NCBI RefSeq assembly: GCF_004634385.1
Contig: NZ_CP037895.1
Location: forward strand, 1,711,245-1,775,244
DNA: 64,000 nucleotides
Source: Thermaerobacter sp. FW80
GTDB taxonomy: Bacteria > Bacillota > Sulfobacillia > Thermaerobacterales > Thermaerobacteraceae
Direction: 5' to 3'
The translations under genes were made by a program, and so were the position numbers. Every line of letters begins with the position of its first letter. The first letter of the stretch is position 1. The notes beneath the pieces were generated by a model that was given only the letters and a program-made list of their open reading frames with translations, did no database searches and was not told the DNA's origin. Positions 1-29,629 of this stretch are shown here, one piece after another.

Positions 1-906
1 GACCCCCTTGGGTGGCAGGGGCGACTGCCCGCCTACGTCTCGATTCGCCATGCGCTGACGCCGGCTGACTTCCTCAAGACGCCACCGGCGACCGACCGTG
101 TGGTCCTTGCCTCCGATGTCCCAATGGAGTACCGGGAACGCATCGTGAGTTGGGCGCTTCGAAATCAGGTGGACCTCTACGTCGTGCCCAATACGTATGA
201 GATTCTGATGGCTTCTGGGCGGCTGACTCACATCGGTGACATACCGTTGATGACCGTATATCGCTTGGCATTGTCAATTGAACTCAGAGCGGTAAAGCGG
301 GCCCTGGATCTGGCTGGAGCGCTATCGCTTTTAATCGCGTTCCTTCCCGTCTTCCTGATCGTGCCGCTATTAATCTGGCTGGAGGACCGGGGGCCCGTAT
401 TCTACCGCCAGCGGCGGGTGGGCCGTGACGGGAAGATCTTCGAACTGATTAAATTCCGTACCATGGTGCCGGAAGCCGAAAAACTCACGGGTCCCGTCTG
501 GGCCCGAGAGGACGACCCGCGGGTAACTCGCGTCGGAAAGTGGTTGCGAGCGACTCGGCTCGACGAATTGCCTCAGGTCTTCAATGTGTTGCGGGGAGAA
601 ATGAGCTTGGTGGGTCCGAGGCCGGAGCGTCCCGAACTGGTTATGGAGTTCGCAGGGCGTAATGCGATGTTCCGGGCCCGGGAGGCCGTCAAACCGGGTA
701 TTACGGGACTGGCCCAGGTGTTGGGCAGGTATGACACGGAGCCGGATTCCAAACTGCGATTTGATTTGTTCTACATTACTCGCTGGGGGCTTGGTCTGGA
801 TCTACTTATCCTTCTTTGGACAATTCCAGTAGTGCTATTTCCGCGCAGTGTTGGTATAGCCGCAAGAAAAATTAGGCAACGAATAGGTCTCGAGTTTCGG
901 ATCTGA
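1..906 (+). CDS. Polyprenyl-phosphate sugar phosphotransferase (C-terminal part, truncated by window edge)
   Basis: The reading frame is open from base 1, so the true start lies outside the window. The visible 301 residues hold the end of the regulatory region, one hydrophobic helix near residues 100-125, and then the bacterial sugar transferase domain. Visible family motifs are PVFYRQRRVGRDG, KFRTM, TRLDELPQ, LVGPRPE and PGITGLAQV. This family (WbaP/CpsE type) moves a sugar-1-phosphate from a nucleotide sugar to undecaprenyl phosphate on the cytoplasmic membrane face, the first step of repeat-unit assembly. It opens the exopolysaccharide island. The next gene starts about 50 bases downstream on the same strand. 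The sugar cannot be read from sequence. Confidence 0.93.
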   Translation, partial: DPLGWQGRLPAYVSIRHALTPADFLKTPPATDRVVLASDVPMEYRERIVSWALRNQVDLYVVPNTYEILMASGRLTHIGDIPLMTVYRLALSIELRAVKRALDLAGALSLLIAFLPVFLIVPLLIWLEDRGPVFYRQRRVGRDGKIFELIKFRTMVPEAEKLTGPVWAREDDPRVTRVGKWLRATRLDELPQVFNVLRGEMSLVGPRPERPELVMEFAGRNAMFRAREAVKPGITGLAQVLGRYDTEPDSKLRFDLFYITRWGLGLDLLILLWTIPVVLFPRSVGIAARKIRQRIGLEFRI

Positions 907-959
907 CACTGGGACGCAGACGTTTGCCTCCTTCGTTGCACGTCCGGAGGATGATTAGA

Positions 960-2093
960 ATGAACGAACGTGTAGCTTTGTTGTTGCCTTCCTTTGAACT
1001 CGGCGGAGTAGAACGTATGATGTTAAGGTTAGCGGACGGTTTTATCCAACGAGGGTTGGCTGTTGACCTAGTTGTGGTTAGAAAAGACGGACCACTAGCG
1101 ACAGAAGTTCCCGCTGGAGCTCGGATCATCGATCTTGGAGGGACAAGGGCACTTGCCAGCACATTCGCGCTAGTTCGTTATCTCCGTCAGGTCCGTCCTA
1201 GAGCCCTACTCACCGCGAAGGACTACATCAATATAGTTGCCTTGTGGGCGCGCCAACTATCGGGTGTGCCCGTGCGGATCGTGGTTAGCGTACGCATTAA
1301 TCCAATTTTGCACTTTCAGCATGTCACAAAGCTGCGGGAGAAGATAATTCCCATGCTGATGCGTGTCACGTACCCACGAGCTGACAGCGTCGTTGCTGTC
1401 TCACATGGAGTTGCTGTCGACCTCATAAGGTTCATTGGCATTCGCAAGGACAAGGTCCACGTGGTCTATAATCCGGTCGTGTCGGATGCCATTTTCATAA
1501 GAGCCGCGGAGCCAGTGCACCATCCGTGGTTTGCGCCTGGCGAACCTCCAGTGGTACTGGCAGTGGGAAGACTTACTGCACAGAAGGACTTTGGTACTCT
1601 GATCAAGGCATTTTCGTTGGTGCGTAAGGAGCGTATAGCGCGCCTGATGATTTTGGGGGAAGGCAAAGAGCGTCCAACTCTGGAACGTATGGTGCACGAC
1701 CTTGGACTCGATGAGGTCGTGTCCCTGCCAGGATTTGAAGTCAATCCATACAAGTACATGAAACGGGCTGCAGTCTTTGTTCTCTCCTCTCGTTGGGAGG
1801 GATTTGGGAACGTACTGGCTGAGGCCATGGCACTTGGAACTCCCGTCGTTTCTACAGACTGTCCCAGTGGGCCAGCGGAAATATTGGAATATGGCCGGTG
1901 GGGGGATTTGGTACCCGTTGCAGACCCGCAGGCATTGGCCCGTGCCATCCTAAAGCGGTTGGACGAACGGGACGAAACCAAGACTAGAGGAGCAGCTGCG
2001 AGGGCGCAGGAGTTCTCGTTACGGAGGTCAGTCGATCGCTACGCCCGGTTGTTACTCGGGGAGCGTGAACGGGATTTGGCTATGTTCACTTAG
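960..2093 (+). CDS. Glycosyltransferase family 4 (GT-B fold)
   Basis: This 377-residue protein has GT4 features. An N-terminal Rossmann half has the glycine-rich acceptor loop ELGGVERMMLRLADGF. The C-terminal half has AVGRLTAQKDF and the nucleotide-sugar binding E-x7-E motif in EGFGNVLAEAMALGTPV. It is expected to add one sugar from a nucleotide sugar to the lipid-linked repeat unit at the inner membrane face. The ATG at 960 is chosen because GGAGG at 946-950 lies nine bases upstream; an in-frame ATG at 951 is too close to that site. Codon use is more AT-rich than in genes after 10 kb, fitting horizontal acquisition of the island. Confidence 0.93.
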   Translation: MNERVALLLPSFELGGVERMMLRLADGFIQRGLAVDLVVVRKDGPLATEVPAGARIIDLGGTRALASTFALVRYLRQVRPRALLTAKDYINIVALWARQLSGVPVRIVVSVRINPILHFQHVTKLREKIIPMLMRVTYPRADSVVAVSHGVAVDLIRFIGIRKDKVHVVYNPVVSDAIFIRAAEPVHHPWFAPGEPPVVLAVGRLTAQKDFGTLIKAFSLVRKERIARLMILGEGKERPTLERMVHDLGLDEVVSLPGFEVNPYKYMKRAAVFVLSSRWEGFGNVLAEAMALGTPVVSTDCPSGPAEILEYGRWGDLVPVADPQALARAILKRLDERDETKTRGAAARAQEFSLRRSVDRYARLLLGERERDLAMFT

Positions 2094-2212
2094 TTCGTTC
2101 TTGGCAAGGTGTGGTTGAGGGCATGCGGCTTGTGCGGGAATGGATTTGGAGCGATAAGGTTTGAACTGGGATTAATCTCTGATATACGCAAGCATCATAG
2201 GAGGCTCTGGTA

Positions 2213-3460
2213 TTGATTGACTTGGCGTTAGCGTATCTTGCACTTGCCTTTTTGGCGCTGTTTTATAACGGTGTTATACTATTTGATGGCCCCGTTAAAA
2301 TTGTTCCGTATGACGTCGTATTTATTCTCGGTGCTTTCTTGTTTGCCCCTAAAGTTCTCCTGGATAAAAGAGCCGTGATCACCAGGGAACTAAGGGGCGG
2401 AATGGGTCTTTCTATGATTTTGTTGACTTGGGTACTTCTACAAGCGTTCCGGTCGCCCGACCTCGGACGTGCGGTGACATTGGTGGGCATCCTGATTCGC
2501 GACATCGGGACGATGGTGCTTGTGGGAATGGGAATGTCGCAGTGGCAGGTGGGGCGGCAGCGGTTGTCCAAGTTGCTGTTTTCTGTAGCTGCAATCGCAA
2601 CCGCAATTGCGTTACTAGTGTATGTTTGGACTATCAGTGATCCTGCTAAGGTTAGTGCGAATCCGAGGCCTGGGCTCATATATCGGGCTGGCGAAGGCTT
2701 CTTTCCACACCTCCAGGGATTCACGAACAATCCGATCTATCTTGCTGTGCTAATTTTGATCGCAATTGCTTCGGGTTTGGTATCGCATCCGGCTACGATT
2801 GTCGGGCGGGTGTGGCGCTGGGCGGGGTTGGGTGTGTTGTTTCTAGGTATGATAATGACCTTCTCGCGCGGCGCTCTCATAACGATGGTGCTCGCGGCAT
2901 TCATGGTGGTGGTTATTGTAGGAGCTGTTTCAAAGTCGGCGCGGAGCATTAGCAAGCGTCTAGTTGGCGGTATTGCGTTGGGGGGTCTAATAGGCGTCCC
3001 GGTGCTGGGTATGATCGAGTTACCCGGCCAAGATGTTTCCGTGCTTGGTAGAATTGTGTTTCGCTTCACAGAGGCGCGATGGGCTTCTCGAGCGGACAAT
3101 TACTGGTGGAGTTTGTTGCCTGATGTTTATGAGAGGCCAGTACTTGGGCATGGGCTAAGGGCGGCTGAGTTGAAATTGTTTGGACAGGCGGTCGAGAATT
3201 CGTATTTGGACCTCGTTTATGACCAAGGGCTTGTTGGCCTGATGTTATGGAGTGCGTTGATATGTTATATTTACAGTGTCGCTATGCGACAGGCGAGGAA
3301 TGATGGGAACGGTGTCTTATTTGTATACATGTGGTCAATAGTAGTCCTGTCTATGGCTTATGTTTCCATGCACTACGATCCTATTACATGGATAATTGCG
3401 GGTTGGATCTTGAGCGGTGTACAGAGGAGCGATGGGCACAAGAGGACGCCAAGTGCCTGA
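2213..3460 (+). CDS. O-antigen polymerase/ligase-like membrane protein (Wzy-like)
   Basis: A 415-residue protein made almost entirely of hydrophobic helices (about 10-12), with a soluble loop near residues 270-320. This layout and its place between glycosyltransferases and the chain-length regulator fit the Wzy/WaaL family, which polymerises lipid-linked repeat units on the outer face of the membrane. Sequence is poorly conserved in this family, so the call rests on topology and context. The TTG at 2213 is preceded by AGGAGG at 2199-2204. A 120-base spacer separates it from the GT4 gene. A flippase (Wzx) is not seen in the window. Confidence 0.8.
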   Translation: MIDLALAYLALAFLALFYNGVILFDGPVKIVPYDVVFILGAFLFAPKVLLDKRAVITRELRGGMGLSMILLTWVLLQAFRSPDLGRAVTLVGILIRDIGTMVLVGMGMSQWQVGRQRLSKLLFSVAAIATAIALLVYVWTISDPAKVSANPRPGLIYRAGEGFFPHLQGFTNNPIYLAVLILIAIASGLVSHPATIVGRVWRWAGLGVLFLGMIMTFSRGALITMVLAAFMVVVIVGAVSKSARSISKRLVGGIALGGLIGVPVLGMIELPGQDVSVLGRIVFRFTEARWASRADNYWWSLLPDVYERPVLGHGLRAAELKLFGQAVENSYLDLVYDQGLVGLMLWSALICYIYSVAMRQARNDGNGVLFVYMWSIVVLSMAYVSMHYDPITWIIAGWILSGVQRSDGHKRTPSA

Positions 3461-4142
3461 GCTCGATTTTGGTGAATGATTATTGGGTCTTGCAAGTTGA
3501 GGTTAGTGTGGTCGGTGGGGCAGTACCGAGCGTTCGAAGAGGGTTGTTGGGCAATGCGCTGACTGATAGCGAGTTATTAGGTCCAAGGCGATTTGTCTCG
3601 TCGTCGTTAAACCTAGGTATTCAAATGGTGAGAGATGAAATCGTACTTGGTAGGGACGCAGAGGCCTCGTATCCCCGCGACGGTATTAGGGAATGTGTCA
3701 TCGAATGCCCTGAGCAAGAAACGCTGCAAATGCCGGTGGTGTCATGGAAGCCGGTGAACAGGGCTATATTTGAGAAGCAATAGCTAGTGCGGTGATTATG
3801 TCGTTGGGTGGGGGCGATGCGTAGTTTCGTTTCTCAGAAAAGGAACGCAGAAAGAGAACGCATGGTGGATACGGTGTTTCCTGGCGCTTGGAGGAGGTCG
3901 GCATTGGATATCCGAAGCGAATTCAATAGAAAGGGATTGGAAATGAAGATCGCGAATTGAATTTGTGGCTCCGAGAGTCTGGTGGAAAGATTCTATTATG
4001 CCATCCGTTTCGCTGCCGGTATTTCGTGCGGCCTGTACTGAAGGTTCTTGCTCGACAGTATTTTCGGCCACAGGTTTTGATAGTCGGTCGTTGTGATGAC
4101 GGATGACGTGCGGTTGTGAGTACATGAAAGGGAGCGGTTGCG
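3461..4142 (+). other. 680-base AT-richer stretch without a supportable gene
   Basis: One frame stays open from inside the polymerase gene to 3783. Its product matches no family I recognise, and the only candidate start there (TTG 3469) lacks a ribosome binding site. No terminator with a T-run was found. The base composition is that of the island, so this may be decayed coding sequence or an untranslated leader of cpsC. Confidence 0.4.
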
Positions 4143-4820
4143 ATGGGTAATGCAGTGGATCACGAGGAGTTAGCATTGGAAGAATGGCTGCTGGTTGTGG
4201 CCAGGCGATGGCGAATCATTGCATTGATGATAGTGGTTTCAATATGTCTTGTTGGGATTAGGATGGCCATGGTGCCGCCAACGTTTGAGGCGCGGGCACG
4301 ACTGTTGGTTCTTCCCCCCGATCAGGCTGTTAACGATGTCGAGACCTTAGAACTGTATCGTAATTTGGTCCCTACGTATAAAGAGTTGCTGGCGAGTAGG
4401 CGTGTCATGGATGCCGTCCTAAGGGACCTCGGTCTGAGTTGGTCTTCAGACGAGTATCGCCGGCGGGTGCGTATTAGGGCCTATGAGGAAAGCCAAGTGC
4501 TCGATGTGTTTGTTCGGGATAGCTCTCCCTCCGAGGCGGCGCGAATAGCGAATCGTGCCGCTGAGATCATGACGGGCATAGCGGCTGAGGTCATGCGCGA
4601 AAACAGGCTTGTGTTGCTTGATTCTGCCGTGCCACCAGAGGAACCGGTCAGTCCTCGGCCGGCGTTGGAACTATCGCTAGCTGTGTTATTGGGGCTACTC
4701 GTTGGAACCAGTATTGGGCTAGCGCTCGAGGTGTTGGATCGGCGAATCTGTGACGAGGCTGCCGTAGAGCGTCGTCTCGGGTTGCCTGTTCTGGGTGTAA
4801 TCCCCCATATTGACCTGTAG
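4143..4820 (+). CDS. cpsC: Wzz/CpsC-type chain-length regulator and tyrosine kinase activator
   Basis: This 225-residue protein has the Wzz topology. A membrane helix at about 23-42 is followed by an extracytoplasmic domain and a proline-rich PPEEPVSPRPALE segment directly before the second helix at about 176-198. A short cytoplasmic tail follows. In Bacillota such proteins set polysaccharide chain length, and the tail activates the separate CpsD kinase. The cpsD gene begins 15 bases downstream, giving the usual split two-gene arrangement. The start ATG at 4143 follows GGGAGCGG at about 4131. Confidence 0.92.
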   Translation: MGNAVDHEELALEEWLLVVARRWRIIALMIVVSICLVGIRMAMVPPTFEARARLLVLPPDQAVNDVETLELYRNLVPTYKELLASRRVMDAVLRDLGLSWSSDEYRRRVRIRAYEESQVLDVFVRDSSPSEAARIANRAAEIMTGIAAEVMRENRLVLLDSAVPPEEPVSPRPALELSLAVLLGLLVGTSIGLALEVLDRRICDEAAVERRLGLPVLGVIPHIDL

Positions 4821-4835
4821 AAGGGAGGCACCTCG

Positions 4836-5597
4836 TTGACGGAGGCTTTCCACACCCAGGGTCAGGAGGTTGTAGCACGTTACCAGTCCCGGCGGTCTAG
4901 GGCGGTTCGGGATGCGGAGAAGGATTACGATATCGGTATTCTTGGCGGTCTGGAATCACATTCACCAGCCGTGGAAGCCTACCGGCTCGTCCGCACGAAC
5001 TTGCAGTACTTGGCGGTAGATAAGCCACTACGCAGTATCATGATCACCAGCGGCTTGCCGGGTGAGGGTAAGTCGCTGACCGCGGCCAACCTGGCCTTGA
5101 GCTTTGCCAACGCGGGTAAGACTACCGTGCTTGTTGAAGCTGACATGCGGCGGCCAGTACAATCGGCACTGTTTGGGCTTGCGAATGTGTATGGCCTGTC
5201 CGCGGTCCTGGCTGGTTCTTGTACCCTTAATGAAGCGCTCCAATTGGTCCCGCGTGCTAAGAACCTATGGGTCCTACCCGCCGGCCCAACGCCGCCCAAC
5301 CCGGCAGAACTACTTGGGTCGCGCCGTGCTCATGAGCTCTTTGCCGGCTTGGTTAATGACTATGAGGTCGTAATCTACGACACCCCACCAGCAGTTATGG
5401 TTGCAGATCCCCTGGTGCTGGCACCAAAGGTGGATGGCGTGATCCTGGTGGTTAGCGCCGAGAACTCCGACCACGTGCAGTCCCAGAAGGCAAAGGAGGC
5501 CTTGGAGAAGGTAGGTGCTCGCATTCTGGGCGTTATCCTTAACGACGTGCCGCTCAAACGGATGGGCTACTACGCGCGTTATTACCGGCGGCGGTGA
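4836..5597 (+). CDS. cpsD: Bacterial tyrosine (BY) kinase CpsD/YwqD
   Basis: A 253-residue cytoplasmic BY-kinase. Walker A is SGLPGEGKS near residues 72-80, the second Walker motif is VEADMRRP near 101-108, and Walker B is VVIYDTPP. The C-terminus has a tyrosine cluster, GYYARYYRRR, the usual autophosphorylation site. Together with CpsC it controls polysaccharide polymerisation and export; the matching phosphatase is probably the PHP protein at 54758-55534. The TTG start at 4836 has GAAGGGAGG upstream. The last 120 bases of this gene and its terminator recur in altered form at 8493-8716. Confidence 0.94.
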   Translation: MTEAFHTQGQEVVARYQSRRSRAVRDAEKDYDIGILGGLESHSPAVEAYRLVRTNLQYLAVDKPLRSIMITSGLPGEGKSLTAANLALSFANAGKTTVLVEADMRRPVQSALFGLANVYGLSAVLAGSCTLNEALQLVPRAKNLWVLPAGPTPPNPAELLGSRRAHELFAGLVNDYEVVIYDTPPAVMVADPLVLAPKVDGVILVVSAENSDHVQSQKAKEALEKVGARILGVILNDVPLKRMGYYARYYRRR

Positions 5598-5664
5598 TAT
5601 GAGCAGCCAAGGCATACGCCTTCGAGCCACTACGCGAGAGGGGGCAGGGGCGAGTGATATAAGG

Positions 5665-5697
5665 AAATGCCGGTCCTGCATTCGACCGGCACTTTTC
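5665..5697 (+). terminator. Intrinsic terminator of cpsC-cpsD
   Basis: Stem TGCCGGTC (5668-5675) pairs with GACCGGCA (5684-5691) around an eight-base loop, followed by CTTTTC. A near-identical copy lies at 8683-8716. Confidence 0.85.
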
Positions 5698-5700
5698 TAG

Positions 5701-6096
5701 TCGTCAATCGCGCCCCCAATAGGTTTCCCGTAATGCGGGTTGACAGCCGATGCCCCGGCCGGGGGCCGTAAGAGGGAGCAGGCACGCATCAGCTATGGAA
5801 TGTGCGTGACGAGCCTACATCCTACAGAGGCCTAGCAAACGTACAACTTCTCCCCCATAGAAACCGAGCAACGGTGGGAAGACGGTTACTCGATTCGGTA
5901 CGTGATGTGATGGCCTTCAAGGGAAATGTGAGGGCTCATTCTATGGGTGCAAATATGGGGGTACGGAGACTTTTGAGACGCTGCCGTTAAATAGTCGAGT
6001 ATGGTATGAACGCCTTGCCCAACCTTAGATTTTTCCCCTATTTCTGCGGACGAGAGGCCTCATACCACGGATGGCTTACCACCTAGGGGCTTTCGT
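5701..6096 (+). other. Intergenic stretch after the cps terminator
   Basis: Nearly 400 bases without a coding frame that has a ribosome binding site and family resemblance. The promoter of the following glycosyltransferase should lie here because a terminator precedes it, but no convincing -35/-10 pair was identified. Confidence 0.4.
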
Positions 6097-6954
6097 TTGC
6101 ACGCGATCGAGGCCATGGAGATGATGCACAAGATGCCCACTGTGAGTGTACTCATGACTGTTTTTAATGGCGAAAGGTATTTGGCGGAGGCCCTTGAGTC
6201 GTTGAGGAATCAGACCTTTCGTGACTTTGAAGTGGTAATCGTCGACGATGGATCGACGGACCGGTCCAGAGAAATCATCCGGTACTATATCGAAAGGGAC
6301 AAACGTTTCAGGGTGATATACGCTCAGCGCGTGGGGCGGGCCGCTGCGTTGAATCTGGGGCTGCGACAGTGTCGTGGGTGTTTTGTTGCCGTTAACGACG
6401 CGGATGACATATCTGTGAACAATCGCCTCGCAGTGCAGGTGGAGTTTTTGCGTAGAAATCCCAATGTTGTACTGGTAGGTGGATGGGCTGAAGTGATTGA
6501 CGAAAATGGACGTATTCTTGGAAGACGGTGTCCACCGGAAGGGGGTTGGCGGATTAAGAGCTTGCTTTCACTGGGCAATCCTATTGTTCACTCCACAGTA
6601 ATGTATCGACGGGATGTATTGTCATTGATTGGTGGTTTTGATGAGACGTTAAGCTGTGCAATTGATTACGACGCCATCGAGCGGTGTATGCGATACGGGC
6701 CAGTGTCATGTTTGCCTGTAATCGTAGCGCGGCACCGTCGCCACATGGGTCAATACTTCCGCGGCAATATTTCTGCACGAACGCGTTTTCGGACAGCGGC
6801 TAAGACTGCTGTTCGAATTGCGTGGAATCATGCCATATGGATGCTGCCGTTGTCCATCATGGTATATGTTGGGGCCTTCGCACCCTTGAGTTCTCCGTTC
6901 ATGCGTATTGCGCAGTTGATTCATACACGTATGGTACACGGACGGCACGCATGA
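6097..6954 (+). CDS. Glycosyltransferase family 2 (GT-A fold)
   Basis: 285 residues. The GT2 start VSVLMTVFNGERYLAEAL is followed by the nucleotide-binding aspartates in VDDGSTD and the metal-binding NDADD. A C-terminal hydrophobic segment near residues 245-262 may anchor it to the membrane. It is expected to add a sugar to the lipid-linked intermediate. The start is uncertain: TTG at 6097 has a moderate AGGGGC site, while ATGs at 6115, 6121 and 6133 are also in frame and closer to the usual family start. It lies after the cps terminator, between the two copies of the cpsD tail, so it is probably its own transcription unit. Confidence 0.9.
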   Translation: MHAIEAMEMMHKMPTVSVLMTVFNGERYLAEALESLRNQTFRDFEVVIVDDGSTDRSREIIRYYIERDKRFRVIYAQRVGRAAALNLGLRQCRGCFVAVNDADDISVNNRLAVQVEFLRRNPNVVLVGGWAEVIDENGRILGRRCPPEGGWRIKSLLSLGNPIVHSTVMYRRDVLSLIGGFDETLSCAIDYDAIERCMRYGPVSCLPVIVARHRRHMGQYFRGNISARTRFRTAAKTAVRIAWNHAIWMLPLSIMVYVGAFAPLSSPFMRIAQLIHTRMVHGRHA

Positions 6955-7311
6955 TGGTCGGCCACGATTTGATGGCAGTTATAAGTGTGGGTTATCCGCA
7001 GCGAAGTTGACTACGGCCACGGGGTCGTCGCACGATAAGATATTCGACGGGTATTGGATTTTGCTCATTTTTCTGTGGCAGCGAGAAGCCATAAGGTTAG
7101 ACGACGTAATAGAGCGCAAGCTCCGCCTGGAGCGGAGAATTTATGGTGGGCTGTGCCTTAATATTTGTGGCAAGGGACTGCAAGGAAAGCCGTTCGTGTG
7201 AGGATAACGGCGTCCACGGTGGGACATTATCGTCTGCTGCCACCGGCATTGAGCGTGGCGTTTGGAGTACTGTGCGGAAGTCGGGTTTGGGCGGAGGAAG
7301 GGTGGGAAGGA
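6955..7311 (+). other. Intergenic stretch between two glycosyltransferase genes
   Basis: About 360 AT-richer bases. The downstream frame is open upstream to 7165, but that extension does not resemble a GT2 N-terminus and is not counted. No terminator was seen. Confidence 0.4.
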
Positions 7312-8226
7312 ATGGGTCGAACGGTAAGGATATTGTCGGTGTTAATCGCTACGAGGAATCGTCCCGAGGCGCTAAGGTACTGTCTTTCTAGTGTTGCTCG
7401 GCAGGCACGTCCGCCAGGTTGGAGTGTAGAGGTAGTGGTACTAGATGACGCGCCGGAAATTAGTGCTCGTGAGGTCGCTGAAAGTTTGTCGGAGAGCTTA
7501 CCGATACGATATGTGCGTACGGATGCTCGTTTGGGCGTTACTGGGGCTCGTAATCGTCTGGCTGAGGTATCGCAAGGCTCTATATTGGTCGTGCTAGACG
7601 ATGACGCAGCATTTGTCGATAGTGATGCGCTCGTTCAGGTTGTTAAGGCGCTTGACCGCGATAACTCTATTGGTCTTATTGCGTTTTGCATTTACGACGA
7701 TCCTGGTGGCACGTTACACGTACCGTTTTCGAGGAAAGCGATACGGCGGAATCCGAATATCGTTAGTGAGGAAGGGTATGTTTCCTATTTCAACGGTGGA
7801 GGTTATGCCGTTCGGCGTGCAGCTTTGAATGCTGTCGGTTTGTACGATGCGGACATGAAGTATGGATGCGAAGAGTTGGACTTAGCATTTCGGCTAATCG
7901 AAAGCGGATGGACTATCCTTTATAATCCTAGAGTCAAGGTTCAGCATCGCGTGGCCACGAGCAGCTATTCAAGAGAATGGAAAGCATTCTATGCCTTGCG
8001 TAATCATCTGTGGGTTGGTAGAAGGTACCTACCGCTTCCTTATAGAGTAATGTACCTGGTATCATGGATACTCTATATGGGTTCCGAATTGATGATTCGG
8101 TACCGACGACCAGACATGGTTTGGGCAGCAATTAAAGAGGGGATTTGTGCGCCGCAGCCCAGGCGTATTCTGTCTAGAAGGGCAGTGAAATACCTAAAGA
8201 TGCATTATGGAAGGTTGTGGTGGTAA
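7312..8226 (+). CDS. Glycosyltransferase family 2, rhamnosyltransferase-like
   Basis: 304 residues. Motifs in order are SVLIATRNRPEALRYCL, VVVLDDAP, the metal-binding VVLDDDA, and GCEELDLAFRLIESGW, the catalytic-base region of GT2 enzymes. The C-terminus is basic. The ATG at 7312 is chosen because the GT2 fold begins four residues later and GGAGGAAG lies at 7293-7300. It is expected to act at the cytoplasmic membrane face on the polysaccharide repeat unit. Donor and acceptor are unknown. Confidence 0.9.
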   Translation: MGRTVRILSVLIATRNRPEALRYCLSSVARQARPPGWSVEVVVLDDAPEISAREVAESLSESLPIRYVRTDARLGVTGARNRLAEVSQGSILVVLDDDAAFVDSDALVQVVKALDRDNSIGLIAFCIYDDPGGTLHVPFSRKAIRRNPNIVSEEGYVSYFNGGGYAVRRAALNAVGLYDADMKYGCEELDLAFRLIESGWTILYNPRVKVQHRVATSSYSREWKAFYALRNHLWVGRRYLPLPYRVMYLVSWILYMGSELMIRYRRPDMVWAAIKEGICAPQPRRILSRRAVKYLKMHYGRLWW

Positions 8227-8492
8227 CATGACTACTAAGTAGTGGATTTGTGGTGGAAGTAGAAGTAGGGCCTATATGCAATGTTTGCGGTCCGGCCGCG
8301 GGTGCTGTGGTAGTGAGAACTTGTTCACGACAGGATGTTCGCATATTGGGAAGGAGCGAGGGCGAAAGAAGAAGGTTCGAGGTTGAAAGGAATAGGCCTA
8401 GTACCGGTATTATAGAGTACCGCAGGTGAGTCTGTTTAGAAGGTTGTCGAGTTGAGTTGGCGGGAAGTTTGGGAAGCAGGTGTTTCGGTTTG
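8227..8492 (+). other. Short AT-rich stretch with no recognisable gene
   Basis: No frame with a start site and family resemblance was found. It lies directly before the cpsD-tail remnant and may be decayed island sequence. Confidence 0.35.
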
Positions 8493-8612
8493 CAGTCGCA
8501 GAAGGCCAGAGAGGCTCTGGAGAAGGTTGGTGCCCGGATTTTGGAGGTTAACGTCAACGACGTGCAGCTTAAGCAGGTGGGGTATTATGCCTGCTATTAC
8601 CGGTGGGGATGA
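8493..8612 (+). pseudogene. Remnant: second copy of the cpsD 3' end
   Basis: The last 40 codons of a BY-kinase, in frame and ending in a stop. It parallels the end of cpsD at 5478-5597: QKAREALEKVGARIL against QKAKEALEKVGARIL, then VNDVQLKQVGYYACYYRWG against LNDVPLKRMGYYARYYRRR. No start codon, Walker motifs or cpsC partner precede it, so it cannot encode a kinase. The downstream terminator is also shared with cpsD, so the homology covers gene end plus terminator. Confidence 0.85.
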
Positions 8613-8682
8613 TGTCTAGACGAAGGCGTACAAAAGGAGCCAGTATGGGGTAACGGAATGCTGTAGTGATAGATAAGATAAA

Positions 8683-8716
8683 AAATGCCGGTCCTGCGTT
8701 CGACCGGCACTTTTCT
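8683..8716. terminator. Bidirectional intrinsic terminator, copy of the cpsD terminator
   Basis: Stem TGCCGGTC (8686-8693) and GACCGGCA (8702-8709). CTTTTC follows on the plus strand and T6 follows on the minus strand, so it can end transcription from the island and from the convergent small gene at 8732-8929. Confidence 0.8.
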
Positions 8717-8731
8717 AGGGTCGTGGCACCT

Positions 8732-8929
8732 TCAACGGAACCCGAGCGACTCCACCAGCCACCAGATGGCAATTATGCCGCCCACGGCCGTGATTCCCGC
8801 GAACACCAGCATAGCTTCCCTCAGGAGGGCTCTCTCAGAACTGGAGAGAACCTCTTCCGGCGTGGGGCGGTCGTACCGGTGTTGCCGTAGAGCTTTGACC
8901 ACAACGCGGAACAACTTAGCCAACGCCAA
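8732..8929 (-). CDS. Small single-span membrane protein; leader displaced by the IS element
   Basis: 65 residues: an amphipathic basic N-terminus (KLFRVVVKALRQ), a polar linker, then LLREAMLVFAGITAVGG and a tryptophan-rich membrane helix to the C-terminus. It resembles the 64-residue protein at 15363-15557 (LLRE, F-x-G, WL at equivalent places). The start is TTG at 8929 or TTG at 8923. An IS256 element inserted at 8931, so the original GGAGGA site (reverse strand, about 10366-10371) is now 1.4 kb away. Translation is therefore probably impaired unless the IS end supplies a new site. Function unknown. Confidence 0.6.
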   Translation of the reverse strand: MALAKLFRVVVKALRQHRYDRPTPEEVLSSSERALLREAMLVFAGITAVGGIIAIWWLVESLGFR

Positions 8930-8930
8930 T

Positions 8931-10356
8931 GGTGACGTCCTAAACTGTCTGTAAACGCGAAGCGGTCTGGGCTACCATCGGTGGCGTCGGAAAACTCGCC
9001 CCAGCTGGGGCACACCGAGGAGGACCCAGACCTATGTCCAGGATACCACCCAGCCAGCAGTTGGCGGAGCTGGCCCGGCAGCTGGCCGCGCAGGCCCGGG
9101 AGGGTACTGAGGTCGAGGACCTGACCCATGCCCTCGTCCGCCTGGGCGCCCGCAAGCTCATCCAGGAGCTGCTGGAGGCAGAGGTCACGGAGCTTTTGGG
9201 GCGCGGACGCTACGAGCGGCGCGAGCCTGGCCAGGAAGGCGCCCGCAACGGCTACAAGCCGCGGACGCTGCGTTGCGCCGAGGGGCGGCTCGAGATCGAC
9301 GTCCCCCAGGTGCGGGGCATGGAGGGACTGTGCCAGCCCACGCTGTGGAGGGCCCTCAAGCGGCGGACGGACGTGCTGGAGCGCCTGGTGGTGGAGATGT
9401 ACGCCCGGGGCCTCTCTACCCGGGACATCGAGGATGCGCTGGCGGAGCTGGCGGGCAGCGAAGCGCCGCTTTTGAGCCGGTCCACCGTGAGCCGGATCAC
9501 CGAGGCGCTCCACGAGGAGTTCGAGGCCTTTGCCCAGCGGGACCTGTCAGGCCTCGACGTGGTGTACCTGTTCGCCGACGCCATCTACGAGTCGCTGCGC
9601 CGGCAGGCGGGCTGCCGTGAGGGCATCCTGGTCACCTGGGCCATCTTGAGCGACGGCAGCAAGGTGCTGGTGCACCTGAGCCTGGGCAACAAGGAGCGCT
9701 ACGAGGACTGGCTGGAGCACTTCCGGGATCTGGTGCGCCGGGGGCTGAAGACGCCGCTGACGGTGACGACGGACGGGGCGCCGGGGCTGATCCAGGCGGT
9801 GGAAGCCATGTGGCCGGAGGCGGAGCGCATCCGCTGCTGGGTGCACAAGATGCGGAACGTGCTGGACAAGGTGCCGGAGGAGGCGCGGCCCGTGCTCAAG
9901 CCCTACCTGGAGGCGATCCGGGACGCACCGGATATCGAGCAGGGCCGGCGGCTGGTGGCCGAGGTGGTGGAGCGGTTCGGGCGGGAGTATCCCTCGGCCA
10001 TGCGGAGCCTGCAGGAGGACCTGGAAGCGAGCCTGGCGCACCTGCGGCTACCCGCCGCCCACCGCAAGCATGTCCGGACCACCAACCTGGTGGAGCGCAG
10101 CTTCGAGGAGGAGCGGCGGCGCGCCAAGGTGATCCCGCGGTTTCGGAGCGAGCGGGAGTGCCTGAAGCTAGTCTTCGCCGTGCTGTGGCGGGCGAGTGAG
10201 CGCTGGCGGCGGGTGCAGTTCAGCGAGCACGAACGAAAGCAGCTGGAGCGCTACATCGAGGAGCGGCAACGGCAAAGAGCGGCGCAGAAAGAGGTTTCAC
10301 CCGCTGCCACCGTGGCATGACCCAGACCGCTTTTACAGACAGTTCGGGACTTGACC
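8931..10356 (+). mobile_element. IS256-family insertion sequence, complete, 1426 bp
   Basis: The left end GGTGACGTCCTAAACTGTCT (8931-8950) and the reverse complement of the right end (10356 backwards, GGTCAAGTCCCGAACTGTCT) match at 21 of the first 25 bases, forming terminal inverted repeats. The 9-bp target duplication AACGCCAAT flanks it at 8922-8930 and 10357-10365. One intact transposase lies inside. Size, duplication length and transposase family all agree with IS256. The undecayed target duplication suggests a recent insertion. Confidence 0.95.
9034..10320 (+). CDS. IS256-family (Mutator-like) transposase
   Basis: 428 residues, full length for the family. Catalytic acidic residues fit the DDE pattern: D in YLFADAIYESL, D in TVTTDGAPGLIQA, and E in TNLVERSFEEERRR. 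The C-x2-H-like CWVHKMRNVLDK region follows the second aspartate. The ATG at 9034 is preceded by GAGGAGGACCC. It catalyses copy-out/paste-in movement through a circular intermediate in studied members. No frameshift or stop is visible, so it is probably active. Confidence 0.96.
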   Translation: MSRIPPSQQLAELARQLAAQAREGTEVEDLTHALVRLGARKLIQELLEAEVTELLGRGRYERREPGQEGARNGYKPRTLRCAEGRLEIDVPQVRGMEGLCQPTLWRALKRRTDVLERLVVEMYARGLSTRDIEDALAELAGSEAPLLSRSTVSRITEALHEEFEAFAQRDLSGLDVVYLFADAIYESLRRQAGCREGILVTWAILSDGSKVLVHLSLGNKERYEDWLEHFRDLVRRGLKTPLTVTTDGAPGLIQAVEAMWPEAERIRCWVHKMRNVLDKVPEEARPVLKPYLEAIRDAPDIEQGRRLVAEVVERFGREYPSAMRSLQEDLEASLAHLRLPAAHRKHVRTTNLVERSFEEERRRAKVIPRFRSERECLKLVFAVLWRASERWRRVQFSEHERKQLERYIEERQRQRAAQKEVSPAATVA

Positions 10357-10365
10357 AACGCCAAT

Positions 10366-10566
10366 TCCTCCGTGTATCTAGACTAGTGTGGAAATTGCTG
10401 GGCCCTGTCGAAAATTGGCTATCTGTTGGTTGTTTATACCGTTCCTTTCTGGTCCGTTCCTGTTGCCGGATTGGCTACCTCCCCAATGCTGGACTGAGTC
10501 CCGGAAACGTGGCTCTGCCGGGAGGATGCCGGTCCTACCACCGGAAGGCAGAGAGGAGGAGGCGCC
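10366..10566 (+). other. Spacer between the IS element and the CocE pseudogene
   Basis: Holds the original upstream region of the small membrane gene on the minus strand (TCCTCC at 10366-10371 is its ribosome binding site read backwards) and, on the plus strand, GAGAGGAGGAGG just before 10567. No other gene seen. Confidence 0.5.
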
Positions 10567-12305
10567 TTGGCCTGGCTTGGCGATACCCCGGAACCCTCCG
10601 TAGTTCCCAGTGGCGTGCCTTCGTCCCGGTCATCCCTCTTCGGTAATCGGGATTCATCCTGGCCTGTTTACCCCGTTCGCCACGAGTTCAACGTCCGTGT
10701 CCCCATGCGGGACGGGATCACCCTCTCGGCGGACATCTACCGCCCCGACGCCCCGGGGAGGTTGCCCGGACGCCCTACAACAAGAACACCGAACGGGCGT
10801 GGAAGTACGGGAACTTCTTCGCCCGGCACGGCTACGTCTTCGTGTGGATGGACGTGCGGGGGCGCGGGGACTCTGACGGGGAGTTCGTCCCCTACCGCAA
10901 CGACGCCAAGGACGGCTACGACGCCATCGAGTGGCTGGCCCGGCAGCCCTGGTCCACCGGCGACGTGGCCACCTGGGGCGGGTCCTATCTCGGGCGCATC
11001 CAGTGGCTCACCGCCCTGGAGAAGCCGCCCCACCTCAAGGCCATGATCGTCCACGTGACGCCGTCGGACCCCTACGTGGAGTGGCCCACGGGCACGCCCG
11101 GGCCCATGCACGTGTGCTGGAACCGCATGACCGACGGCCGGGTTCTTCAGTACGTGGACAAGATCGACTGGATGAAGGTCTACGAGCACCTGCCGCTTCT
11201 AACCATGGACAAGGCGGCGGGGTTCGTGAGCCGGCACTGGCGGGAAGACTGCGCCCACCCCACCCTGGACGAATGGTGGGAGCCCCTGCGCTACCAGCAC
11301 CGCTTCCACGAGATCGACCTGCCGGTGCTGCACGTCTCGGGCTGGTACGACGACGAGCAGATCGGCACGCCCTTGAACTTCGCCGGCATGGTGCGGCACG
11401 CCCCCAGCGAGCGGGCCCGGCGGGGCCAGAAGCTGATCATGGGGCCCTGGGGGCACCGGGTCAACGAGAGCCGTAAGCTGGGCGAGGTGGACTTCGGGCC
11501 GGAGGCCGTGATCGACCTGGACGGGTACGAGGTGCGCTGGCTCGACTACTGGCTCAAGGGCATCGACAACGGCATCGGCGAGGAGCCGCCGGTGCGCCTG
11601 TTCATCATGGGGGCGAACCGCTGGCGGGACGAGCACGAGTGGCCCCTGGCCCGCACCCAGTGGACCAAGTTCTACCTGCGCAGCGGCGGCCGCGCCAACA
11701 GCCGCTTCGGCGACGGCGTGCTGTCCACCGAGCCGCCGGCGACGGACGAGCCTCCGGACGTCTACCTCTATGACCCGGCCCGGCCGGTGCCCTTCATCAC
11801 CGATCCGCTCTCGAGCCAGATCGGCGGCCCCGATGACTACTCCGCCGTCGAGACCCGGGGCGACGTGCTGGTCTACTCGACCCCGCCCCTGGACCGGGAC
11901 GTGGAGGTGACGGGGCCGGTGAAGCTGGTGCTGTACGCCTCGTCGTCGGCGGTGGACACCGACTTCATGGCCAAGCTGGTGGACGTGCACCCCAATGGCT
12001 TCTGCCAGCGGCTGTGCGATGGCATGGTCCGGGCCCGGTTCCGGGAGGGCATGCACAAGGAGGTCTTGATGGAGCCAGGCAAGGTGTACCGGTTCGAGAT
12101 CGACCTCTGGAACACGGCCAACGTGTTCAGGCGAGGGCACCGGATTCGCCTCGAGATCGCCTCCAGCGCCTTCCCCAAGTACGACCGGAACCTCAACACC
12201 GGCGAGCCCCTGGCCACCTCCACGCGCATGGTGGTGGCGGAGAACCGGGTCTGGCACACGCCGGCGTGGCCGTCGCACCTGATCTTGCCCATCATCCCGG
12301 AGTAG
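10567..12305 (+). pseudogene. CocE/NonD-type hydrolase (X-Pro dipeptidyl-peptidase family), frameshifted
   Basis: The N-terminal frame gives RHEFNVRVPMRDGITLSADI and ends its homology at RPDAPGRLP (about 10767). Homology resumes in another frame at ARTPYNKNTERAW (10764 onward), then MDVRGRGDSDGEF, the nucleophile motif WGGSYLG, and the C-terminal jelly-roll domain to 12305. About three family residues are missing at the join, which fits a roughly 10-base deletion at 10761-10770. Family members are serine esterases or peptidases acting on acyl esters or proline peptides. The start TTG 10567 has AGAGGAGGAGG upstream. It is either a genuine pseudogene or a sequencing error; the rest is well preserved, so inactivation would be recent. 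Confidence 0.85.
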
Positions 12306-14156: not shown

Positions 14157-15146
14157 TTGCGCGTGTTGGTGACGGGCGCGGCGGGTTTCATCGGTTCCCA
14201 CGTGGTGCAGCATCTGCTCGAGGGGAGGGAGGAACACGGCCGGGCGGGTGACGCCGGGCCTGCGCGCAGCGCGGTCGCGGCCCGCGAGATCGCCGCCATC
14301 GACGACTTCTCGGCCGGCCGCGTCGACCGCATCGGGGAGGTGGTGGTGCAGCGCGTCGACGTCACCGAGCCCGAGGCGGTCGAGGCGGTGTTCCGCGCCT
14401 TCCGGCCTGAGGCCGTGATCCACCTGGCCGCCCAGGTCAGCGTGGAGCGGTCGCTGCAGCGGCCGGACCGGGATGTGGAGGTCAACGTCTACGGGACCCT
14501 CAACGTCCTGCGGGCGGCGGTGGCGGTGGGGACGCGCCGGGTGGTGTTCGCCTCGTCGGCGGCGGTGTACGGGAACCCCCGCCGGCTGCCGGTGGACGAA
14601 GACCACCCGCTCGAGCCGCTCTCGGTGTACGGCCGTTCGAAGCAGACGGCGGAGTGGCTGATCCAGCAGTACGCCCGGGGCGCGGGCCTGGAGGCGGTGA
14701 TCCTCCGCCTGGGGAACGTGTACGGCCCGGGGCAGCGGCCCGAGACGGGGCCCGTGGTGGCCCGGTTCTTCCTCGACGCGTTGCGCGGCCAGGGGCCGGT
14801 GATCCACGGCGATGGCCGGCAGACCCGGGACTTCGTGTTCGTGACCGACGTGGCGCGGGCCTTCGCCCGGGCGCTGGTGGGGCCGGCCGGCCTCGTGGCC
14901 AACGTCGCCGGCGGGTCGGCGACGACCATCGGGGATCTGGCCGAGCGGATCGGCCGGTTGGTGGAGGGGGCGCCCTCGCCGCGGCATGGGCCGCCTCGAC
15001 CCGGCGACATCCGCCACAGCGTCCTGGACAACCGGCGGGCGCGGGAGCGGCTGGGCTGGGCTCCCCAGGTGAGCCTCGACGAGGGGCTCGCGCTGACCTA
15101 TCGCTGGTACCGCCAGCGGGTGGTGCAGCCGGCGCCGGCCGGGTAG
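14157..15146 (+). CDS. NAD-dependent sugar epimerase (GalE-like extended SDR)
   Basis: 329 residues. The NAD motif VTGAAGFIGSHVV starts at residue 5. The catalytic set is ASSAAVYG and YGRSK (Y-x3-K). Family signatures RLGNVYGPGQ and GDGRQTRDFVFVTDVA follow. It probably interconverts UDP-glucose/UDP-galactose or the matching uronic acids; with the dehydrogenase just upstream, UDP-glucuronate 4-epimerase activity is possible. A short Ala/Arg-rich insertion sits near residues 25-40. The TTG at 14157 is favoured because it falls directly before the Rossmann strand. The 145-base spacer from the dehydrogenase suggests cotranscription. Confidence 0.9.
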   Translation: MRVLVTGAAGFIGSHVVQHLLEGREEHGRAGDAGPARSAVAAREIAAIDDFSAGRVDRIGEVVVQRVDVTEPEAVEAVFRAFRPEAVIHLAAQVSVERSLQRPDRDVEVNVYGTLNVLRAAVAVGTRRVVFASSAAVYGNPRRLPVDEDHPLEPLSVYGRSKQTAEWLIQQYARGAGLEAVILRLGNVYGPGQRPETGPVVARFFLDALRGQGPVIHGDGRQTRDFVFVTDVARAFARALVGPAGLVANVAGGSATTIGDLAERIGRLVEGAPSPRHGPPRPGDIRHSVLDNRRARERLGWAPQVSLDEGLALTYRWYRQRVVQPAPAG

Positions 15147-15360
15147 GGCGCGGGCGGGCGGTGCAGCCCGCGACAGGCGGGTAGGGTGCGGCCAGGTAGG
15201 ACGCGGGCGGGCGGGGCAGCCAGCGCCGGCCGGCTAGGGCGCGGGTGGGGGCGCCGGCCAGACCGCGGCCGGGGGGTCGCCGGTTGGGGTGGGGCCGGGA
15301 GGCCGCCGGGTAGGGCGCGGCCGGGATGCAGCCGGCCAGGGTGGGGCCGGGAGGCCTCCC
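15120..15360. repeat. Imperfect tandem copies of the epimerase gene end
   Basis: The unit around GGGTAGGGCGCGG plus GCAGCC recurs four to five times with spacing of about 36-75 bases. The first unit includes the epimerase stop codon. No gene lies inside. Confidence 0.7.
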
Positions 15361-21585: not shown

Positions 21586-22854
21586 GTGCGTGTGTTGCAG
21601 GCGTACCGTTTCGCCCTCGACGCCACACCCCGCCAGGAACGGGCGTTGGCCTCCCACGTGGGCGCCCGCCGCTTCGCCTTCAACTGGGGTCTGGCGCTGG
21701 TGAAGGAGCGCCTGGAAGCCCGCGCCCGGGGTGAAGACGTGGAAGTGCCATGGACCCTCGCCGCCTTGCGGCGGGAGTGGAACCGGCAAAAGCACCTCGT
21801 CGCCCCCTGGTGGCGGGAGAACTCGAAGGAAGCCTACTCCTCCGGTCTGGACGGACTCGCCCGGGCCCTGCAGAACTGGTCGAAGAGCCGCCAGGGCGAA
21901 CGCAAGGGGCGCCGGGTGGGGTTTCCCCGGTTCCGGAAAAAGGGCCGTGGCCGGGAGTCGGTGCGGTTCACCACCGGCGCGATCCGGGTGGATGACAAGA
22001 GCCACGTCGTCCTGCCCCGGATCGGGCGGGTGAAGACCCACGAGCCCACCACGGCCCTGCGCCGGCGCGTCGAAGCAGGGACGGCCCGCATCCTCTCGGC
22101 CACGGTGTCGCGGGAGGGGGGCCGGTGGTTCGTCAGCTTCACCTGCGAGGTGGAGCGGCCGCCGGGCCGCCCCCGGTTCCCCGGGCGGGTGGTGGGCGTG
22201 GACGCGGGGGTGAAGCACCTGGCGGTCCTTTCGACGGGCGTGGTGTGGCCGAACCCGCGACCCCTTGAAAAAGTCCTCCGGAAGATCGCCCGGTCCAGTC
22301 GCGCCCTGGCCCGCCGCCAAAAGGGCAGCCGAAGGTGGCAACAGGCCCGCCGCCGGCTGGCCCGGTTCCATGCGCGGGTCCGGAACCTCCGCCAGGATGC
22401 CCTTCACAAGCTAACCCACCACCTGGCGAGCACCTACGGCGTGGTGGTGGTTGAGCAGCTGCACGTGGCGGGCATGTTGAAGAACCGCCGGCTCGCCCGG
22501 GCGTTGGCGGATGCGGCCCTGGCGCAAATCCGCCGCCAGCTCAACTACAAGTGCCCCTGGCACGGGGCGGTCCTGGTCGAAGCGCCGCCCTTCTACCCCA
22601 GCAGCAAGCGTTGTTCCCGGTGCGGCGCGGTCAAGTCGTCGCTGCCGCTTTCGCAGCGCATCTTCCGCTGCGAGGAATGCGGGCTCGTGCTCGACCGGGA
22701 CGAAAACGCGGCGCGGAATCTCGCGGCCCTGGTGGCCGCCGTCGCCGGGAGTGGCCCGGAGACGGAAAACGCCCGTGGACGGGATGGAAGACCTGCCACA
22801 AGGCAGGCGATCCCGGAGGAAGCGGGAAGCCGGCACCGGCGCATGGCCGGGTAA
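21586..22854 (+). CDS. tnpB: TnpB RNA-guided nuclease
   Basis: 422 residues. N-terminal VLQAYRFALDATPRQ and FAFNWGLALV are typical. The RuvC-like nuclease is complete: D in VVGVDAGVKHLAVL, E in VVVVEQLHVAGML, and D in LVLDRDENAARNL. The four-cysteine zinc finger CSRCGAVKSS...RCEECG lies between the last two. Studied TnpBs cut DNA next to a short motif using an omega-RNA made from the element's right end. The GTG at 21586 is preceded by GGGGGG eight bases upstream. No frameshift is visible. The C-terminal tail overlaps the presumed omega-RNA region. Confidence 0.95.
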   Translation: MRVLQAYRFALDATPRQERALASHVGARRFAFNWGLALVKERLEARARGEDVEVPWTLAALRREWNRQKHLVAPWWRENSKEAYSSGLDGLARALQNWSKSRQGERKGRRVGFPRFRKKGRGRESVRFTTGAIRVDDKSHVVLPRIGRVKTHEPTTALRRRVEAGTARILSATVSREGGRWFVSFTCEVERPPGRPRFPGRVVGVDAGVKHLAVLSTGVVWPNPRPLEKVLRKIARSSRALARRQKGSRRWQQARRRLARFHARVRNLRQDALHKLTHHLASTYGVVVVEQLHVAGMLKNRRLARALADAALAQIRRQLNYKCPWHGAVLVEAPPFYPSSKRCSRCGAVKSSLPLSQRIFRCEECGLVLDRDENAARNLAALVAAVAGSGPETENARGRDGRPATRQAIPEEAGSRHRRMAG

Positions 22855-22912
22855 GACCGGCACCGCCGATCCGCAAGGATCGGCTGCCTGAAACAGATGA
22901 CGATGTTTCAGG
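22855..22912 (+). ncRNA. Presumed 3' scaffold of the TnpB omega-RNA
   Basis: Two strong hairpins (22865-22884, 22887-22912) at the right end sit where omega-RNA scaffolds end in characterised elements. The guide would start in the flanking gene sequence beginning about 22909-22913. The 5' limit is unknown and probably lies inside tnpB. Confidence 0.5.
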
Positions 22913-23409
22913 TAACGGATGGAGCGGCTCGTTTCGGCTGCGGGCGCCGAGACTCTACGCCAGCCGGTTCTTCCTCCGATTGACGCCGGTCCCGGGCTCT
23001 GAACCCCGCCGCCCTGTGGATCTGATCGGCGGGTTCGCCATCCGCACCGACGGCGGGATCTGCCGTCTGCCGGCGCTGGAGGGCGGGACCCGGCAGGGCG
23101 TCCCCACCGCCAGCCCCGAAGTGTGGCTGGTCGCCTACCGGCTGATGAACCGCCACGACCGGGCGGACCTTCTGGCCGGCTACCTTCGCCGCCACGGGGC
23201 CGCACCAGACCGGGTGCGCCGGCTGCTGCTCGAGCCGTTGCCCGCGGCGGTGCGCCGGGAGCTGGAGGCCTTGCTGGATCGGCGGAAACGCTTGGGGGGA
23301 GGGTCGCCCGGTGCCGGCAACGAATCGTAACGGAGGCCGCGACCTTCGATGCGCGTAGCGGGCCGCGGGGCGCCGCCCGCCCCCTCCGGCCCGTGAGGAG
23401 GTATTCCCC

Positions 23410-24570
<1,161 letters not shown>

Positions 24571-24602
24571 GACCAGGCTCGGGGAGGGGGTCGACCCCGA
24601 TC

Positions 24603-24743
24603 TTACCCCTCCACGTTCGTCAAGAGGTGGACGCCGTTCTCCTGGCAGCGGCAGGCGAGGTAGGCGTCGGGAAACGGTGCCGCTCCGGAGGCTTGGCGCT
24701 CGAGTGCGAACACGGCAGGAGGCAGGAGGTACTTGCCGGGAGT
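24603..24743 (-). pseudogene. Possible C-terminal fragment of a PIN-domain (VapC-like) protein
   Basis: An open minus-strand frame without a start codon reads PFPDAYLACRCQENGVHLLT and then NVEG before a stop. The D-A-Y-L-A and LLT pattern resembles the last strands of PIN ribonucleases, including their conserved aspartate. No N-terminal domain or antitoxin is present, so at best this is a remnant. The similarity is short and may be chance in GC-rich DNA. Confidence 0.25.
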
Positions 24744-24744
24744 G

Positions 24745-25836: not shown

Positions 25837-26274
25837 GGACTCCACCTCCTGCGCCGCGGCCCGTCCGGCGATGCAGGCTCCGGCCGATGCAGCCTCCGGC
25901 GGGCGCGGGTCTTACCCCTGCGGTGCGGATCGTCTTGGCTCCTGGGGTCGCCGGTCTTGCCCAGGATAGTCTGGGTTGCGCAGGAGGGTGTCATGCGCGC
26001 GGCGCGGTGCGAAAGGGGAGCCAAGGCGTCGTGGGGGGCCCGGCGCGAGGAGGCGTGACGGCGCGATTTCGCCGCAGCGGTACCATCGCAGCGGTACAAT
26101 CCTTGGAAAGAAGCGGTTCGGTGTTGCGTCAGGGTTCGTGTTGGTCCGTCGCGTCCGTGCACCGGGATGCCGTCGCCGGCCGAGCCCCTCCGGCGCGGCA
26201 GGGGCGGCGGGCGTCCCGGCACGCAAGGGGCGCGGAAACGGGCGAGGAAACGGGGGAAAGGGGGAGGCTGGCCG

Positions 26275-27129: not shown

Positions 27130-27854
27130 GAAGTGGCCGGAGCGGCGGGACATCCCGACGGATTGATCGGCTTGATGCGGTCCATCCCCGCCGATGCAGC
27201 CGGCCACGATCCTGACCAGGTGATCGCCACGGTGCGGCGGTCGGAACCCCCGCCGCGCGGCGCCCCGGGCCGGATGCAAGCGGAACTGCCCATCCGCTGC
27301 CCTCCCCGGGAACCCAACCGGCCCGGCTGCACACCCGCCCTCCCCGGAACCCAATCGGTGTGCGGCGCCGCGAAAGACCGTCGGCACCTGGTACGGAGCC
27401 CCGCGGGAGAACCGCGGGGTTTCTTTCTTTTTCTCGCCTTTTTCCTCGCTTGGAGGTGCATCCTAAGCCGTGCCCCGGTCCCGCCTGGGAGCCGTGGCCG
27501 GACAGGGAGCCGTGGCCGGACCGGCGAACCCGGGTGCCTCACCGAAGCCCGGCGCGGGTCGGAGGGGCGGGGGACCGGTGCGTCCGCCTGGCCGGGGACT
27601 CGGCCGCCGGGCGAGGGCCCGGTCCGGGATCCGGCGGCGGCACAGGGCCGCACGGGGCCGGTGCGGACGGGACCCGAGGCTTGGCGGCCGCCGGGAGGGC
27701 GACCGGGCCAATGGACCCGACCGTTGCCGGACCGGGCCCCGGGCGGCATCCGATGGCCCTGGGCCCGATGGTGGAGACCGCGCCCCCGGTTTAGTCTGGG
27801 GACCAGGGCAGGGGATCCGGTCGACGTCGCCGGGGGCGCAAAGGAGGCGGAGCG
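27130..27854 (+). other. 725-base GC-rich spacer before cydA
   Basis: No credible gene. It contains the terminator at 27399-27427 and a repeated GGGAGCCGTGGCCGGAC pair at 27487-27522. The cydA promoter should lie after the terminator but was not recognised. Confidence 0.5.
27399..27427 (+). terminator. Intrinsic terminator downstream of the HAD gene
   Basis: CCCCGCGG (27399-27406) pairs with CCGCGGGG (27412-27419) around GAGAA, followed by TTTCTTTCTTTTTC. Confidence 0.85.
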
Positions 27855-29522: not shown

Positions 29523-29629
29523 GTTCGACGGGGCGCTGGGCGAGCGACGCGTTGCGCACCGGCGGGCCGGGTCGCATGCCCGGCGTGGAGTGACAGCCGG
29601 TCGGCTGCGCCTGGAGGCCGAGCAGGCAG

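Follow-up and report, generated by a model that had tools for sequence, protein, structure and literature searches.

The stretch analysed here (the window) comprises 64,000 nucleotides of Thermaerobacter sp. FW80 (G000:C1:1711245-1775244). At its left end lies an exopolysaccharide locus in which the end of the kinase gene cpsD, together with the terminator behind it, occurs twice, on either side of two family-2 glycosyltransferase (GT2) genes. Comparison of four Thermaerobacter genomes, this one and the congeners G001, G002 and G003, makes it quite probable that an older operon, still in place, received a block of genes in front of it and then lost the duplicate genes, the right-hand cpsD tail being a remnant of the old cpsD.

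Collinearity with the G001 operon and three deletion scars

The G001 operon has the order Bac_transf-GT2a-GT4-wzy-GT2b-wzz-cpsD-terminator-peptidase, and from 5702 as far as the peptidase gene (10842) the window is collinear with it. The G001 genes are listed below in g1 coordinates, which run along the reverse complement of G001:C1:1740001-1780000; GT4 is a family-4 glycosyltransferase, and the wzy-like open reading frame (ORF), which has no Pfam match, was named by its place and length alone.

g1 23603-25169, Bac_transf2, frame broken
g1 25701-26537, GT2a
g1 26838-27980, GT4
g1 27973-29196, wzy-like ORF
g1 29150-30055, GT2b
g1 30302-30979, wzz
g1 30995-31756, cpsD1, followed by the same terminator and peptidase copy 1
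g1 33705-34478, cpsD2, followed by peptidase copy 2

The aligned segments pair window positions 5702-5784 with g1 23241-23331, 5790-7229 with 25379-26831, 7236-8493 with 29065-30340, and 8491-8930 with 31635-32075; past 8930 the window has an insertion sequence (IS) and then the peptidase gene. The alignment reveals one resident segment and three scars:

5702-5784, + strand, segment X, homologous to the DNA just upstream of G001 Bac_transf2 (G001:C1:1756670-1756760, 80% identity, E 5e-17)
5785-5789, no strand, scar 1, a gap of about 2.05 kb against G001 that covers the whole Bac_transf2 gene (5784 aligns with g1 23331 and 5790 with g1 25379)
7230-7365, + strand, scar 2, a gap of about 2.23 kb that covers GT4 and most of wzy, of which about 43 C-terminal codons are left
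8440-8493, + strand, scar 3, about 13 N-terminal codons of wzz fused to the cpsD tail across a gap of about 1.29 kb that covers wzz together with most of cpsD

Because remnants of the genes survive at the edges of the gaps, the window appears to have lost these genes rather than G001 to have gained them, and the window is thus the derived state. To the right of the right tail, spacer and terminator agree with the DNA that follows G001 cpsD1 as far as 8930, and the match of the left copy to that DNA ends just past its terminator. Full cpsD genes number two in G001, one in G003 and none in G002. Since wzz, cpsD, terminator, spacer and peptidase stand complete at the right-hand position in G001 and the window carries a scar there, the right copy is best read as the remnant of an older cpsD in its original place. 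An earlier note on this DNA had considered that an older cpsD was displaced and had proposed looking for a strain with a full cpsD at the right end; the full gene found there in G001 and the fusion of the wzz N-terminus to the cpsD tail both support that idea.

The repeated cpsD end and terminator

The repeat described in the earlier note was confirmed, with its boundaries correct to within a few bases: the tail of cpsD and its terminator recur around the two GT2 genes (6097-6954 and 7312-8226), and no part of the kinase body was found upstream of the 39-codon right tail.

8491-8613, + strand, right cpsD tail, decayed remnant, 9 of its 39 residues differing from all four intact Thermaerobacter tails
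5665-5700, + strand, left terminator (repeat match and terminator recognition)
8683-8718, + strand, right terminator, stem intact, now closing the GT2 pair (repeat match and terminator recognition)

The direct repeat, 5476-5598 versus 8491-8613, is 123 nt long and 76% identical at a spacing of 3015; the terminators, 36 nt each, share 35 of 36 bases (97%) at a spacing of 3018, and both score as a stem-loop with a T-rich tail. A search of the genome with the 251-nt query 5470-5720 returned itself and the second copy (E 5.9e-25, 72% over query positions 7-231), with no third copy. With the left kinase as protein query six matches were obtained in the same genome, namely itself, the right tail (38 residues at 76%) and four distantly related proteins at 25-35%. 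No Rfam match was found at the repeat in a search of 1-24000.

The right tail stays in frame through its stop codon and agrees with the left copy at 29 of the 39 residues. Against G001 cpsD1, 15 of 28 synonymous sites and 10 of the 89 remaining sites have changed (Fisher p 1e-5), and because the changes concentrate at synonymous sites we regard the tail as once part of a working gene. Examined as a BY-kinase, it lacks the nucleotide-binding domain, and only the last 39 codons, with 9 unique replacements, are left; unique residues in the other four tails number 0, 0, 3 and 1. Its singleton changes fall on codon positions 1, 2 and 3 in the numbers 5, 4 and 2 (9 of 11 at positions 1-2), a spread as expected without constraint. 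Identity to G001 is only 0.56-0.61 around the segment that separates the right stop codon from the terminator. A regulatory role of the right tail itself was considered and set aside, the conserved part looking limited to the terminator stem. We take the terminator to have been kept and the tail to be a passenger.

The left block and its genes

Between about -780 and 8930, positions 700-5701 are the sole long stretch that is not collinear with G001. The genes of this region are:

1-906, + strand, Bac_transf, initiating sugar-phosphate transferase, the 3′ part of a 515-amino-acid ORF starting 641 bases before the window (PF02397, 1.7e-64)
700-5701, + strand, putative incoming block running from the 3′ end of Bac_transf through GT4, wzy, wzz and cpsD to the terminator, with approximate breakpoints, delimited by collinearity with G001
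924-2093, + strand, GT4, 47% to G001 GT4 (Pfam, blastp)
2213-3460, + strand, Wzy-like polymerase or O-antigen ligase, a weak assignment (PF04932, 2.5e-6, below its cutoff)
4143-4820, + strand, wzz chain-length determinant (PF02706), 65% to G001 wzz, synonymous sites saturated
4836-5597, + strand, left copy of cpsD, an intact BY-kinase gene whose product has a tyrosine cluster at the C-terminus (TIGR01007, 182.7 bits, cutoff 108.05)

The Bac_transf gene is a mosaic, G001-like to about 700 and another allele thereafter: its sliding identity to G001 is 0.92-0.96 over most of 1-715 and then falls to 0.83, 0.72 and 0.65. The wzy product of the block has no blastp match to that of G001 at 1e-6 and is 25% identical to an ORF of G003. 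An initiating transferase, glycosyltransferases, wzy, wzz and a kinase are found together, as in a Wzy-type exopolysaccharide operon, a comparison made on these components, among which the wzy call is weak.

The left cpsD translation carries the P-loop GLPGEGKS and the tyrosine cluster YYARYY, and its relatives in the PDB are CapA/CapB, Wzc and Etk; on these features and the TIGR01007 match we assign it to the BY-kinases of CpsD/CapB type. Its near relatives are the two copies of G001 (85-86% and 82%) and that of G003 (84%), and the best match in G002 is at 35%. Since kinases outside the genus are 50% identical or less, the donor of the block was probably a Thermaerobacter or near kin. A search of genome contigs gave one distant match (Puia, 39%) and none from the genus.

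The divergence from G001 differs sharply along the locus. Synonymous distances (dS) are 0.24 for GT2a, 0.22 for GT2b and 0.25 for the peptidase gene, compared with 0.51-0.57 for three core genes upstream, 0.78 for a fourth, a giant ORF, and 1.13 for the left cpsD; left wzz is saturated. The G + C content is 0.49-0.57 at 1-9000 versus 0.65-0.76 from 9001 on. The codon-model gene caller, tuned to high-GC genes, overlooked almost all of this low-GC island, and ORFs there were picked by length.

The two GT2 genes

6097-6954, + strand, GT2a, resident family-2 glycosyltransferase, 91% protein identity to G001 (Pfam, blastp)
7312-8226, + strand, GT2b, resident family-2 glycosyltransferase, 90% protein identity to G001, ATG at 7312 (Pfam, blastp)

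We assign both genes to the older operon, because their order is the same in G001, their proteins are 91% and 90% identical and their dS is 0.22-0.24. Both are intact, with ratios of nonsynonymous to synonymous distance (dN/dS) against G001 of 0.18 and 0.24. Replacements per site amount to 9/89 in the right tail, where only the unique ones are counted, versus about 63/1330 in the GT2 genes with both branches pooled (one-sided p 0.03), a comparison in which 63 and 1330 are hand-derived from pN values and estimated site numbers, the tail is short, and the 9 replacements are assumed to time the truncation. The GT2 genes thus seem to have changed less than free drift allows, which lends weak support to their continued use. 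Two of the seven genes of the old operon were kept, exactly those without a counterpart in the newcomer; the chance of this is 1/21 if any two were kept, but the match was spotted after the fact and is suggestive only.

A probable composite locus and the alternatives to it

The proposed history would start from a complete exopolysaccharide operon at the original site beside the peptidase gene. A block consisting of the Bac_transf end, GT4, wzy, wzz, cpsD and terminator would have arrived ahead of it from another Thermaerobacter-like lineage, and three deletions would then have stripped from the old operon what the newcomer supplies, one taking Bac_transf, another GT4 with wzy, and another wzz with most of cpsD. 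The two GT2 genes, the terminator and the three scars would be left over. Holding a single gene of each kind and two transferases besides, the merged locus probably makes a hybrid polysaccharide, the GT2 genes presumably being expressed. The left breakpoint, inside Bac_transf, suits homologous recombination; the right one, past the terminator, does not obviously do so.

Another reading, raised in the earlier note as an exchange, gives the cpsD ends the role of recombination arms and makes the 3-kb piece with the GT2 genes a cassette exchanged or lost between them, switching polysaccharide composition. The direct repeat with the same terminator on either side of the GT2 pair speaks for it, but the usual minimum for recombination is about 25-30 bp, and the tails, which agree at 76% and share no exact match longer than 20 bp, are therefore a poor substrate. 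In G001, moreover, which lacks the left copy, the GT2 genes neighbour the right boundary; none of the three congeners has glycosyltransferase genes, the same or others, between two such tails (G001 has cpsD1-pep1-cpsD2-pep2); and the scars sit within the supposed cassette. The GT2 genes are those of the old operon, and the foreign part appears to be the left block with the intact cpsD, so that, on the comparison with these three congeners, we for now consider the exchange of a cassette very improbable. Nor does the locus resemble the outcome which the note had set against its own proposal, an unrelated kinase gene decayed in place with the genes between unchanged: the tail is that of a related cpsD, and GT4, wzy and Bac_transf have been lost.

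Alternatively, the left operon could be native and a G001-like block of X-GT2a-GT2b-tail could have been inserted behind it, before the peptidase gene. The dS of the GT2 and peptidase genes (0.22-0.25) lies below that of the core (0.51-0.57), as in recently exchanged DNA. However, the left block is flanked on both sides by G001-like DNA (most of Bac_transf at 92-96%, and all from 5702) and is hence itself the interruption, and two separate imports would be required; we judge this order of events unlikely. A simple local duplication of the cpsD end, or a misassembly, would account for two copies 3 kb apart in one genome, but is scarcely credible, as the right flank, the spacer and the wzz and wzy remnants all have their counterparts at the orthologous site of G001, divergence between the copies reaches 24% and the contig measures 2.95 Mb.

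Several points weigh against the history of insertion followed by pruning. The old type of operon is shared with one genome only, G001, so the polarity rests on the scars. Synonymous divergence between the right tail and G001 cpsD1 (15/28) exceeds that of the GT2 genes (pS 0.19-0.20), which would mean that the resident cpsD was already another allele than that of G001, or had been converted. No copy of segment X was found upstream of the left Bac_transf, so that one more deletion or an unknown route of insertion is needed. GT2 distances below the core distance may mean that the resident block itself moved between lineages. For Bac_transf, dS is 0.64 in the 3′ piece and 0.19 in the 5′ piece, values that are rough, G001's own gene being broken.

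Neighbouring elements and a second case in G001

8931-10356, + strand, IS256-family element (NF033543, 7.1e-90) with a 9-bp target duplication AACGCCAAT at 8922-8930 and 10357-10365
10842-12305, + strand, CocE/NonD (S15) peptidase-like gene, right bound of the locus, present in 4 of 4 genus genomes

The site of the IS256-family element is empty in G001. At 10559-10842 the peptidase gene shows indels near its start and a frame change relative to T. marianensis, so that it either has lost its N-terminus or begins at 10842. Further right, several overlapping copies of GC-rich imperfect repeats of 52-53 nt lie at 15098-15352, and the sole Rfam match in 1-24000 is a Transposase-2 RNA (22819-22888, 79.4 bits).

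In G001 (L038 7313-13007, minus strand), cpsD1 is followed in turn by a peptidase gene truncated at its 3′ end, a remnant of the wzz C-terminus, cpsD2 and a second peptidase gene, which is intact, and the spacer downstream of cpsD2 resembles that of G003 (80%). The site thus has two cpsD ends in two of the four genomes, this one and G001 as a mirror-image case, where they arose through different events, and we tentatively suggest, as a possibility somewhat short of even, that the Thermaerobacter site grows by tandem addition of a second operon followed by pruning, and not by allele replacement. Literature searches, in part with narrow terms, found no paper on this locus in Thermaerobacter, and we make no claim of novelty for this mode.

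The wzz gene of G003 is apparently split by a 1.3-kb repeat, probably an IS, with a 99% inverted copy nearby (L039 4614-5915 and 11607-12904). Upstream, unbroken ORFs of 1594 and 1706 amino acids with a GT4-like middle and a C-terminal Bac_transf (L074 5319-10103 and L078 8452-13572) may be fusions; in this genome the Bac_transf end of such an ORF is cut short.

Comparison with known polysaccharide loci

The three scars indicate how a polysaccharide locus can absorb a complete additional operon and be cut back to one functional set of genes, and such trimming suggests how hybrid surface sugars arise. Remnant tails mark the end of an older operon and allow the past of such loci to be traced; if addition and pruning is indeed the rule, merging would give hybrid polysaccharides with a history legible from scars. 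Capsule mosaics with gene remnants are already well known, and the surprise is modest.

Wzy-type exopolysaccharide operons with separate wzz and BY-kinase genes include CpsC/CpsD and CapA/CapB. The present locus shares their content of wzz, cpsD, Bac_transf, glycosyltransferases and wzy and the C-terminal tyrosine cluster, but differs in being a composite of two operons with a kinase stub.

The capsule island of Neisseria meningitidis has an intact galE1 in Region D and a truncated galE2 remnant in Region D′, so that there too an intact gene and a 5′-truncated copy flank part of a polysaccharide locus; the remnant is there taken to be the gene of the recipient itself, truncated when the new block came in (PMC5349592). 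Unlike the situation here, the meningococcal repeats are inverted and the block between them inverts, whereas ours are direct repeats, short and diverged, that enclose genes of the old locus (PMC5349592). The mosaic pneumococcal cps loci, such as that of serotype 39X, likewise arose as new loci by recombination with relatives, and wzd/wze are named there as unusually diverse (PMC5850285). Recombination in the pneumococcus is described there as taking place between serogroups and with other streptococci, whereas in Thermaerobacter sp. FW80 the old operon seems to have been kept beside the new one and pruned (PMC5850285).

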